Assembly (NCBI GenBank): GCA_003488145.1
Contig: DNMQ01000010.1
Span: 1 to 15,393 of the forward strand
Source of the DNA: Pseudomonas sp.
GTDB lineage: Bacteria > Pseudomonadota > Gammaproteobacteria > Pseudomonadales > Pseudomonadaceae
Direction: 5' to 3'
Length of the DNA: 15,393 nucleotides
Position 1 is the first letter of the stretch; every line of letters begins with the position of its first letter. This document shows, one piece after another, positions 10,693-12,018 of the stretch. Below the pieces are notes generated by a model. The model worked only from the letters and a program-made list of their open reading frames with translations. It was not told where the DNA came from and did no database searches. The position numbers were made by a program, and so were the translations under genes.

Positions 10693-10769
10693 TGGCGTCC
10701 CAGGCGAGGTTCGAACTCACAACCTTCCCCTTAGGAGGGGGATGCTCTATCCAATTGAGCTACTGGGAC
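10693..10769 (-). tRNA. tRNA-Arg, anticodon CCU
   Basis: The minus strand folds into a complete 77-base cloverleaf. The 7-bp acceptor stem is GTCCCAG/CTGGGAC, the D arm is GCTC/GAGC, and the anticodon stem is TCCCC/GGGGA with loop CTCCTAA. The variable loop has five bases, and the T arm is GTGAG-TTCGAAC-CTCGC. The discriminator is G and the CCA end is encoded. Anticodon CCT reads the rare codon AGG. All stems pair; the only non-Watson-Crick pair is one G-T in the T arm. Confidence 0.97.
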
Positions 10770-10783
10770 ATCACGCGGCGGGC

Positions 10784-10812
10784 ATGGTAACGAGCCAAGC
10801 ATGATTTGTCAT
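10784..10812 (-). promoter_or_regulatory. Probable sigma-70 promoter of tRNA-Arg
   Basis: On the minus strand, ATGACA (10807-10812) and TACCAT (10784-10789) are separated by 17 bases. The following bases are GC-rich (GCCCGCCGCG), like a stringent discriminator. The tRNA 5' end is about 8 bases after the expected start. The -10 match is four of six. Confidence 0.5.
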
Positions 10813-10874
10813 GCGCATCGTAGACCTGATGCCATGCAGCCTCCTACAGCCGAATACACCTCTCACACATAGCA

Positions 10875-10887
10875 ATGCAAATTGCAT
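10875..10887. promoter_or_regulatory. Palindrome, possible activator site
   Basis: ATGCAAATTGCAT is a perfect 6-1-6 palindrome. It sits about 97 bases upstream of the sigma-54 element at 10983-10998, a usual distance for an enhancer-binding protein. Which protein might bind is unknown. Confidence 0.4.
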
Positions 10888-10942
10888 GACCGCTATTAGC
10901 CATCCGTGCAAAGCGCAAGCAATACTCGCCCCACCACAACGC

Positions 10943-10955
10943 CAACTTATTGATT
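10943..10955 (-). promoter_or_regulatory. IHF binding-site consensus
   Basis: On the minus strand AATCAATAAGTTG is an exact match to WATCAANNNNTTR. It is in an AT-rich stretch about 28 bases upstream of a sigma-54 element. IHF bending between an enhancer and a sigma-54 promoter is a well-known arrangement. Confidence 0.6.
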
Positions 10956-10982
10956 TATAACAGTTTTTATCCAGATAAACTT

Positions 10983-10998
10983 TGGCACAGCTACTGCA
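10983..10998 (+). promoter_or_regulatory. sigma-54 promoter of small-gene pair
   Basis: TGGCACAGCTACTGCA fits TGGCACR-N4-YTGCW with exact GG-N10-GC spacing. The expected start is near 11009, leaving a 30-base leader to the ATG at 11039, which has AAGGA eight bases upstream. Confidence 0.75.
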
Positions 10999-11038
10999 AT
11001 AGCTAGGCAAAGTTAACGTGACGCGAAGGATAACGCTC

Positions 11039-11251
11039 ATGATCAAGTCGGCTTTTCTTCTTACTACAGGCTTTACATTTGCCGCCCTGACAGCCTCGCA
11101 GCTGCCATCCACCGAACCGCAGCAACAGCGATACGAGCCCTCTTCCCAGTTCTCAATTCAGCGCACGAGCAATTCGGAACGCGCACAGATCACCACCCTC
11201 AACTCAGGCGAGGCGAGCGTGCTCACTCAACCGCAACGCTGGGTGTTCTAA
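11039..11251 (+). CDS. Small exported protein of unknown function (70 aa)
   Basis: I do not recognise this gene. The product is 70 residues. The N-terminus MIKSAFLLTTGFTFAALTAS is a convincing Sec signal peptide (one Lys, hydrophobic core, small residues at the cut). The mature peptide of about 50 residues starts near QLPSTEPQQQ. It is rich in Gln, Ser and Thr, has no cysteine and is likely unstructured or surface-associated. A GTG seven codons upstream (11018) is possible, but the ATG has AAGGA at the right spacing. Support for it being real comes from the sigma-54 promoter and IHF site directly upstream, a good ribosome site, and a second small gene 43 bases downstream. Its location beside flagellar genes with sigma-54 control suggests co-regulation with motility, which is inference. 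Confidence 0.7.
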   Translation: MIKSAFLLTTGFTFAALTASQLPSTEPQQQRYEPSSQFSIQRTSNSERAQITTLNSGEASVLTQPQRWVF

Positions 11252-11294
11252 GGGATTCAGTTGAGCGCGGATGGTTCCGCAAAAGGAGTTACTC

Positions 11295-11480
11295 ATGTCC
11301 AGATTTGCATTGACTTGCTTGCTTCTTACCGCAGCGTGCGGCTACGGTGCCTTCTTGGCCCCCCAAAGCCTGGCGACCTTGGATACCTTGTGCAAAGCAG
11401 GACTTGGCATATTCGGAAGCTTATCCCTGATCGCACTCATGATCGGACGCAGGATCAAGTTCGATCCAGTGCTGCGCTAA
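11295..11480 (+). CDS. Small membrane protein of unknown function (61 aa)
   Basis: I do not recognise this gene. The product is 61 residues with two hydrophobic segments: about residues 4-22 (FALTCLLLTAACGYGAF) and about 35-53 (AGLGIFGSLSLIALMIG). These are followed by a basic tail GRRIKFDPVLR. By the positive-inside rule, it is probably an inner-membrane hairpin with both ends in the cytoplasm. LTAAC at 11-15 resembles a poor lipobox, but the second membrane segment argues against a lipoprotein. The ribosome site AAAAGGAG six bases before the ATG is among the best in the window. It lies 43 bases after the 70-aa gene on the same strand, with no promoter or terminator seen between, so the two are likely one transcript. 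Confidence 0.7.
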   Translation: MSRFALTCLLLTAACGYGAFLAPQSLATLDTLCKAGLGIFGSLSLIALMIGRRIKFDPVLR

Positions 11481-11613
11481 GACCCCACAGTCGGACGATA
11501 ATTAGACTGGTTCACAGTAAAGGCATTTTGATAGCACGAGCACTTTACTAATCAGAATATCGACGTACAATTGGCGTCATGAAGCCGTCTCCTAATTTTT
11601 AACCTGGCTGACG

Positions 11614-11640
11614 GAACAGCGAGTACTGGTGGTTGTCAGA
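11614..11640 (+). promoter_or_regulatory. Probable AlgU (sigma-22/RpoE-like) promoter of amrZ
   Basis: GAACAG (11614-11619), a 16-base spacer, then TCAGA (11636-11640) resembles the AlgU consensus GAACTT-N16/17-TCTGA. In P. aeruginosa, amrZ (algZ) is known to need AlgU. The -35 matches only at GAAC and the -10 at four of five bases. Confidence 0.5.
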
Positions 11641-11654
11641 CCGGTGACTACCCC

Positions 11655-11669
11655 GGCAATACGCCAGCA
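11655..11669 (+). promoter_or_regulatory. Probable AmrZ autoregulatory site
   Basis: GGCAATACGCCAGCA closely resembles the AmrZ operator as I remember it from P. aeruginosa (GGCAAAACGCCGGCA, two differences). It lies just downstream of the predicted AlgU start and 25 bases before the amrZ ATG, a good position for self-repression. The reference motif is recalled, not searched. Confidence 0.5.
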
Positions 11670-11694
11670 CGCCCACCTGACTAACCGGTTAATT

Positions 11695-12018
11695 ATGCGC
11701 CCTATGAAACAGGCAGTTTATTCCAGCCGTACGGCTGACAAATTTGTTGTTCGGCTTCCCGACGGCATGCGTGAACGCATCGCCGAGGTAGCGCGGAATC
11801 ATCACCGCAGCATGAACTCAGAAATCATCGCCAGATTGGAGCAGAGCCTGTTGCAGGAAGGCGCACTGGATGAAGATCTGAGCATGCGTCTCGACAGCCC
11901 AGAGCTGTCTCTTCACGAGCGAGAGCTTCTGCAGCGCTTTCGCCAGCTAGCTCACCGCCAGCAGAACGCGCTCATTGCATTGATCGCTCAGGACACCGAG
12001 CTCGCCAAAGAAGATTGA
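11695..12018 (+). CDS. amrZ: AmrZ, ribbon-helix-helix transcription regulator
   Basis: AmrZ is an Arc-family ribbon-helix-helix DNA-binding protein. In Pseudomonas it represses flagellar genes through fleQ and controls alginate, other exopolysaccharides, twitching and c-di-GMP enzymes. The product is 107 residues. The flexible arm and beta strand read [20 protein letters not shown], with K16 and R20 at the positions of the known DNA contacts K18 and R22. The helices follow ([20 protein letters not shown]). The C-terminal tetramerisation part includes [20 protein letters not shown] and [13 protein letters not shown]. The frame is open 22 codons upstream. The start at 11695 gives the family N-terminus MRPMKQ. 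No strong ribosome site is visible; a TAACCGGTTA palindrome occupies that position. No gene is co-transcribed with it. Confidence 0.95.

Follow-up and report, generated by a model that had tools for sequence, protein, structure and literature searches.

The 15,393-nucleotide stretch of Pseudomonas sp. DNA analysed here (contig DNMQ01000010.1 of assembly GCA_003488145.1; hereafter the window) carries two small open reading frames (ORFs), ORF1 and ORF2, behind a sigma-54 promoter element, an integration host factor (IHF) site and a pair of enhancer-type upstream activating sites (UAS; Table 1). Here we show that this promoter architecture, the gene pair and the C-terminal tail of the first product are conserved among relatives, and that the enhancer arrangement recurs beside algB. 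The pair is the counterpart of srgA and srgC of the Pseudomonas aeruginosa srgABC operon (PMC9901815), and the window holds the Stutzerimonas form of that operon, srgA-srgC without srgB. The data also make it probable that AlgB and sigma-54 drive the production of SrgA and that the tail of SrgA activates the protease AlgW, leading to cleavage of MucA and release of AlgU.

Table 1. Features of the srg locus, numbered from the first letter of the window
Feature	Position	Strand	Remarks
ORF1, srgA counterpart	11039..11251	+	70 amino acids; hydrophobic N-terminus, variable linker, C-terminus -PQRWVF
RWVF tail codons, proposed AlgW PDZ ligand	11237..11248	+	Tail conservation; AlgW ligand rules (PMC8545111)
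ORF2, srgC counterpart, PA3371 family	11295..11480	+	61 amino acids; two hydrophobic stretches; conserved tail GRRIKFDPVLR (alignment)
Palindrome ATGCAAATTGCAT	10875-10887		Read directly; contains UAS1
UAS1 TGCAAATTGCA, enhancer-type site	10876..10886		107 bp upstream of sigma-54 element
UAS2 TGCAAAGCGCA, enhancer-type site	10907..10917		31 bp (three helical turns) after UAS1
IHF-type consensus site CAACTTATTGATT	10943..10955		Between enhancer and promoter; read directly
Sigma-54 -24/-12 element TGGCACAGCTACTGCA	10983..10998	+	Upstream of gene pair; read directly
tRNA-Arg (CCT), common upstream neighbour	10693..10769	-	Only Rfam match at gathering score
AmrZ-like ribbon-helix-helix regulator, directly downstream	11692..12018	+	Pfam Arc, 91 bits

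Both frames lie where an earlier, sequence-only reading of the window had placed them, each behind a purine-rich ribosome site. ORF2 belongs to the NCBIfam family PA3371 (NF041882; 84.9 bits against a cut-off of 50, residues 1-61 on model positions 1-60 of 60) and ORF1 has no match in Pfam or NCBIfam, so that the claim of the same reading that neither product falls in a known family holds for ORF1 and fails for ORF2. Because a search of 5.8 billion proteins returned only six relatives of ORF1, 81-99% identical, its orthologues were reached through gene order. In the protein search of 58 genomes, the window's own included, ORF1 was found in 18 and ORF2 in 37, which are all 37 of the genus; across the family, the PA3371 model matches 224 of 298 genomes, 134 of them above its cut-off. 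The window's nearest named relatives are Stutzerimonas kunmingensis, Stutzerimonas chloritidismutans and their neighbours.

Two sets of loci were compared. The first comprises 56 srg loci, namely the window and the 55 of srg type among 60 fetched; the other five (L122-L126), fetched as weaker second matches to the PA3371 model, are by reading of DUF1328 type and were rejected as srg copies. The second, or named, set consists of the best 80 of 237 named loci, 59 of which lie outside the first 56; some come from genomes already present in the protein searches, and related genomes are not independent. Among 14 sequences, with pairs showing too few or too many synonymous changes excluded, the median ratio of non-synonymous to synonymous change (pN/pS) was 0.43 for ORF1 (36 pairs) and 0.13 for ORF2 (16 pairs), and one close ORF1 pair gave a dN/dS of 0.97 on four changes. 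Both frames are under purifying selection; conservation across relatives and substitution ratios, the measures by which the sequence-only reading had proposed to judge them, both speak for the pair, which many Pseudomonas and Stutzerimonas share. Its description of an exported small protein with a two-helix membrane partner survives as a conserved pair and is given up as to secretion, a periplasmic, anchored or signal-peptide protein being preferred for SrgA.

The published srgABC operon (PA3369-PA3371) likewise begins with a periplasmic small protein and ends with a two-helix protein of the PA3371 family (PMC9901815; here and below, what is taken from cited papers refers to the available parts of their texts), and the window too has a srgA-type gene followed by a PA3371-family gene under a single promoter. 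The window differs in that srgB, the gene of a one-helix protein, is missing from the 43 bases between ORF1 and ORF2, and in that its SrgA is shorter and ends in -RWVF, not -AWTF. An srgB-like ORF is present in L107 (genome G174), L102-L104, L114 and L118. We regard G174 as P. aeruginosa or a close sister because it contains a published mucE primer exactly and its srg product sizes agree with the published ones (9.83, 5.34 and 6.50 kDa with a possible cut after Gly27, against 9.9, 5.3 and 6.5 kDa and Gly27); its operon shares the sigma-54 element, IHF site and UAS pair of the window. The text of PMC9901815 contains no rpoN, WVF or PDZ, and AlgW appears in it once, in the reference list. A table for a PA2206 mutant gives PA3369-3371 values of 0.32-0.36 (PMC3557286); these three genes are also listed in a biofilm transcript table (PMC2998477), and PA3369-3370 in a gene-chip table (PMC12431658).

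The sigma-54 element, the IHF site and the palindrome were all found at the positions given by the sequence-only reading, which had overlooked UAS2. A sigma-54 element precedes the pair in 53 of the 56 srg loci, the window included, and in 79 of the 80 named loci, the exception (L285) having just 247 bases upstream. The three first-set loci without one are L121, with masked letters, L084 (G009), where srgC is present and neither srgA nor the element is detectable upstream of it, and L092 (G010), where a transposase-like gene breaks the promoter and the start of srgA and srgC is retained. Among the 53, at least one TGCA-N3-YGCA-type site lies upstream of the sigma-54 element in every locus, two lie 30-32 bp apart in 50 (exactly 31 bp in 37), and a strict IHF match is found in 33; in the named set, 74 of 79 loci have two sites 30-32 bp apart. 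Perfect TGCA-N3-TGCA sites number 79 in the enhancer zone (130-50 bp ahead of the 53 sigma-54 elements, 4,240 bases in all) and 22 in the other 529,884 bases of these loci, a density of 18.6 per kb versus 0.04 per kb. Where the sites have moved (L093-L095), both have moved together by 10 bp, one helical turn. The GG-N10-GC element, the upstream sites, the IHF site and the conserved phasing are those of an enhancer-dependent sigma-54 promoter, which bears out the operon layout proposed from the sequence, and promoter and pair are conserved together across loci. No AlgU-type promoter was found on the + strand between 10501 and 12100, and promoter-like and terminator-like sites at 10800-11750 are no more numerous than in shuffled sequence.

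The tail of SrgA is conserved as well. For the named set, the ORF was chosen by length (45-130 codons), best ribosome site and a start 25-110 bases behind the sigma-54 element, with any ending allowed, and all 79 ORFs obtained end in [WLF][VTIS]F: RWVF in 60, HWVF in 6, RFTF and RFVF in 3 each, RLVF and RWTF in 2 each, and RLSF, RWIF and SWVF in 1 each, with R at -3 in 72. This is the tail count to trust, because extraction in the first set demanded a final F. That extraction yielded SrgA from 52 of 53 loci, with RWVF in 35, HWVF and RLSF in 3 each, RWIF, RLVF, RFVF, RWTF and RFTF in 2 each, and AWTF in 1; besides the preset F at position 0, all 52 have V, T, S or I at -1 and W, L or F at -2, and 48 have R at -3. 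The locus missed, L127 (G235), carries the same sigma-54-type sequence twice upstream of srgC, 184 bp apart; it escaped extraction because of this duplication, and its tail is RWVF. As background, the fetched loci hold 606 ORFs of 150 codons or more, of which one ends in [WLF][VTIS]F and 13 end in F. The ending -FTF occurs naturally in the SrgA of L114, L118, L280 and L327 (L323 repeats L118). A hydrophobic N-terminus was seen, as judged by eye, in the SrgA sequences listed, and the C-terminus is better read as the working part of the protein.

With its C-terminal WVF-type tripeptide, SrgA resembles the MucE-like activators of AlgW. MucE ends in SVRDELRWVF, and the peptide activates AlgW; the ligand rules ask for a large aromatic residue at 0 and -2, E285 of AlgW limits the size of the residue at -1, and Arg at -3 pairs with E285 and Glu at -5 with K287 (PMC8545111). 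Activation by the -WVF end of MucE leads to degradation of MucA and release of AlgU (PMC3819740), and a truncated pilin ending in -FTF activates the AlgW path in vivo (PMC3684759). Six of seven genomes contain both MucA and a full-length AlgW-type match; the matches are called AlgW because that of G174 has 389 residues with the catalytic residues at the published numbers. Residues W281, L282, E285, M342 and R374 and the catalytic triad are identical in all six, position 284 is V or I, and in G174, whose AlgW has K287, the SrgA has E at -5. SrgA is like MucE in its C-terminal RWVF and, as predicted, in being a small envelope protein; transcription of mucE is AlgU-dependent, unlike the sigma-54 promoter of srgA, and mucE orthologues are reported only in P. 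aeruginosa (PMC3819740). Judged by its sequence, SrgA would work like MucE, and we describe it in those terms and not as a MucE orthologue. A PDZ-gated protease opened by a C-terminal aromatic tripeptide is also the principle of Escherichia coli DegS with the C-termini of outer-membrane proteins (PMC8545111); there the ligand is an unfolded porin, whereas the ligand proposed here is a dedicated, regulated small protein.

As to the activator, the enhancer arrangement points to AlgB. In the complete genomes G174 and G028, paired UAS (at most one mismatch each) with a sigma-54 element stand beside 1 of 22 and 1 of 15 strong sigma-54 activator genes, in both cases algB, and a further 140 kb of G174 had none. 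At the same mismatch limit, the arrangement precedes an operon divergent from algB in 8 of 9 algB loci (one partial), and in 6 of the 9 genomes an ORF ending in -WVF lies within 1.3 kb on that side. The -WVF ORF is accompanied there by a DUF1328-type protein in G298, G303 and G067, where it ends in -RWVF, and by a DUF2383-type protein in G028, G075 and the window's own genome. The DUF1328 (PF07043) proteins are two-helix proteins similar to SrgC in size and hairpin layout, scoring about 29 bits, below cut-off, against the PA3371 model, and they lack its KFDPVLR tail; the assignment comes from Pfam for the G174 protein beside algB and from reading of the sequence for the others. Three perfect sites occur in the 140 kb around algD of G174; two of them precede the algD start codon, by 616 and 514 bases. 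AlgB is reported to bind around -274 to -224 relative to the start of algD transcription, a stretch that would include the first of these two. NtrC, FleQ and DctD were weighed by their general motifs only, and the sole adjacency found was algB.

Beside algB in G028 (L332) and in the window's own genome (L335, contig C165), the second -RWVF protein has 78 amino acids, is encoded downstream of the DUF2383-type gene and has no Pfam match; a sigma-54-like element of its own precedes its gene. We take PA5482 to be the DUF1328 gene beside algB. One list of operons down-regulated under low shear contains both PA3370-3371 and PA5482-5481 (PMC4981712).

Both the paired-site and the UAS2/sigma-54 pattern are rare. 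Read in reverse, the former had no occurrence in any of seven genomes and the latter none in any of five. In the forward sense, the UAS2/sigma-54 pattern occurs at 28 places in the five genomes, all five srg operons among them; four (L164, L176, L178 and L187) were discounted as probable chance or other regulation. The other places precede, by reading, genes of DUF3509 type, BON, CsbD, DUF2383 and similar genes, and of ten proteins put to Pfam nine fell in DUF3509 (twice), BON, DUF2383, CsbD, hemerythrin, DUF892, DUF1328 and KGG, the second -RWVF protein having no match. Proteins of DUF3509 type follow the arrangement at L167, L171, L173, L174, L180, L181, L185 and L188, those of L171 and L173 by Pfam and the rest by likeness; their recurrence suggests a general-stress regulon.

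In the mechanism that we propose, active AlgB of the KinB-AlgB two-component system would most likely bind the paired TGCA-N3-YGCA sites, and bending by IHF would bring it to the sigma-54 promoter, from which polymerase would start near 11009 to make SrgA and SrgC. SrgA would enter the envelope with its C-terminus in the periplasm, where the -RWVF end is predicted to fit the PDZ domain of membrane-bound AlgW as the tail of MucE does; AlgW, once opened, would cut MucA, and the envelope-stress sigma factor AlgU would be released. SrgC may serve as a two-helix hairpin partner, the positive-inside rule placing its invariant tail, after GRR, probably in the cytoplasm. Activation of AlgW by the SrgA tail would offer a reason for the rise of algU in the published srgABC over-expressor, in which algR, mucABCD and alginate were raised as well (PMC9901815).

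Since a second -WVF operon stands divergent from algB in several Stutzerimonas and Pseudomonas, the regulator would reach the protease through purpose-made ligands. We lean, by a little, towards a wider scheme in which KinB-AlgB reaches AlgW by transcribing dedicated PDZ-ligand microproteins (SrgA and the second -WVF protein beside algB), each with a small companion (SrgC for SrgA, a DUF1328 or DUF2383 protein beside algB), the two-helix kinds of which may gate or present the ligand, with AlgU turned on before damage. If this is true, the cell deliberately imitates the signal of a misfolded porin, a feedback loop would arise should AlgU activate algB, and the step missing between AlgB/RpoN and AlgW in Pseudomonadaceae is supplied. 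Published accounts have KinB, AlgB and RpoN act on AlgW, control of algW transcription being one route (PMC3684759, PMC13001231), and a review states that AlgB activates AlgW (PMC13001231); for the passage of the signal into the periplasm, the available literature on them names no carrier molecule. SrgA is a concrete candidate: it is widespread, has an AlgW-type tail, and is encoded behind a sigma-54 promoter with enhancer sites of the kind also found at algB and algD. A proposed AlgB-site consensus and a short list of stress genes for the AlgB regulon are offered as well. The srgABC operon and the AlgW signal were already known; not found in the available literature are the connection between the two, the AlgB site proposed here and the second -WVF gene, next to algB. 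The link from SrgA through AlgW to AlgB is not stated in the available literature on SrgA, MucE, AlgW or KinB, and a prior mention in key KinB/RpoN papers is possible.

Several observations weigh against this mechanism. On the side of regulation, three of the 53 loci (L080, L086 and L091) have a single UAS, the UAS and sigma-54 element near algB in G067 are out of register, and no -WVF ORF was seen in the 1.3 kb divergent from algB in G171, G113 and G174. Transcription of algW is controlled by RpoN in one strain (PMC3684759; also PMC13001231), which could link RpoN to AlgW without SrgA. Two reviews contradict each other on the form of AlgB that promotes alginate, phosphorylated or unphosphorylated (PMC13001231, PMC10418997). 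On the side of the ligand and its receptor, P. aeruginosa-like SrgA ends in -AWTF, without Arg at -3; residue 287 of AlgW is K in G174 only and Q in the other five, and Y311 is F in G303. AlgW-type matches reached the cut-off of the DegS model in none of seven genomes, and neither an AlgW-type protein nor MucA was found in the window's own assembly, which is 73.5% complete. Deletion of srgABC left the plasma survival of the P. aeruginosa parent unchanged, the plasma resistance of the over-expressor was not accounted for by alginate, SrgA was undetectable with protein tags in P. aeruginosa, and the available text does not state whether the algU rise depends on SrgA (PMC9901815).

Of the other explanations, the least improbable, unlikely as it is, has SrgA acting elsewhere in the envelope: -WVF would be a degradation signal, an outer-membrane-type signal or the ligand of a different PDZ protease, MucD for example, and over-expression would activate AlgU as a side effect. 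The same genomes do contain HtrA proteases that have two PDZ-type stretches and read as MucD, and the C-termini of porins also end in F. A direct effect on complement assembly or the envelope has been proposed (PMC9901815). The tail, however, obeys the AlgW rules (small residue at -1, Trp at -2, Arg at -3), its last four residues are those of MucE, and 70 residues are too short for a beta-barrel. It is more doubtful still that the operon is driven as described by a sigma-54 activator other than AlgB, the adjacency to algB reflecting one shared operon only. No AlgB-site motif was found in the available text of the two papers searched for one, which leaves room for such an activator; against it, the paired sites stand by algB in 8 of 9 genomes and by none of the other 21 (G174) and 14 (G028) strong activator genes, and algD, with its two perfect upstream sites, is called an AlgB target in a review (PMC10418997).

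The motility role that the sequence-only reading had drawn from the position between flgZ and amrZ, that of a secreted peptide with a membrane partner under FleQ, now seems very improbable. The pair does sit between these genes in the window, but only 25 of 55 relatives have FlgZ at a distance of 5 kb or less, and even the close relative G028 (L128) lacks it near the pair; among the 30 loci without it, L099 and L102 have little upstream sequence. Moreover, in the loci read, the same two enhancer sites are found again before stress-type genes (DUF3509, BON, CsbD, DUF2383 and others) and beside algB, and none of these genes reads as flagellar. The same reading's alternative of a surface-related role holds in another sense, that of AlgW/AlgU envelope stress. 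That the two ORFs are not genes at all is scarcely credible: both are short and ORF1 has no Pfam or NCBIfam family, yet both are conserved and under purifying selection, and published work on the P. aeruginosa counterpart reports srgABC transcripts and, as a preliminary result, the SrgA product detected in E. coli (PMC9901815).

Among the neighbours, tRNA-Arg (CCT) lies upstream in 38 of the 56 srg loci. The AmrZ-like gene is probably outside the operon; an AmrZ match was found within 5 kb in 43 of 55 relatives, L110 being short of downstream sequence. An AlgU-linked regulator, AmrZ, here adjoins the proposed AlgU-activating operon.
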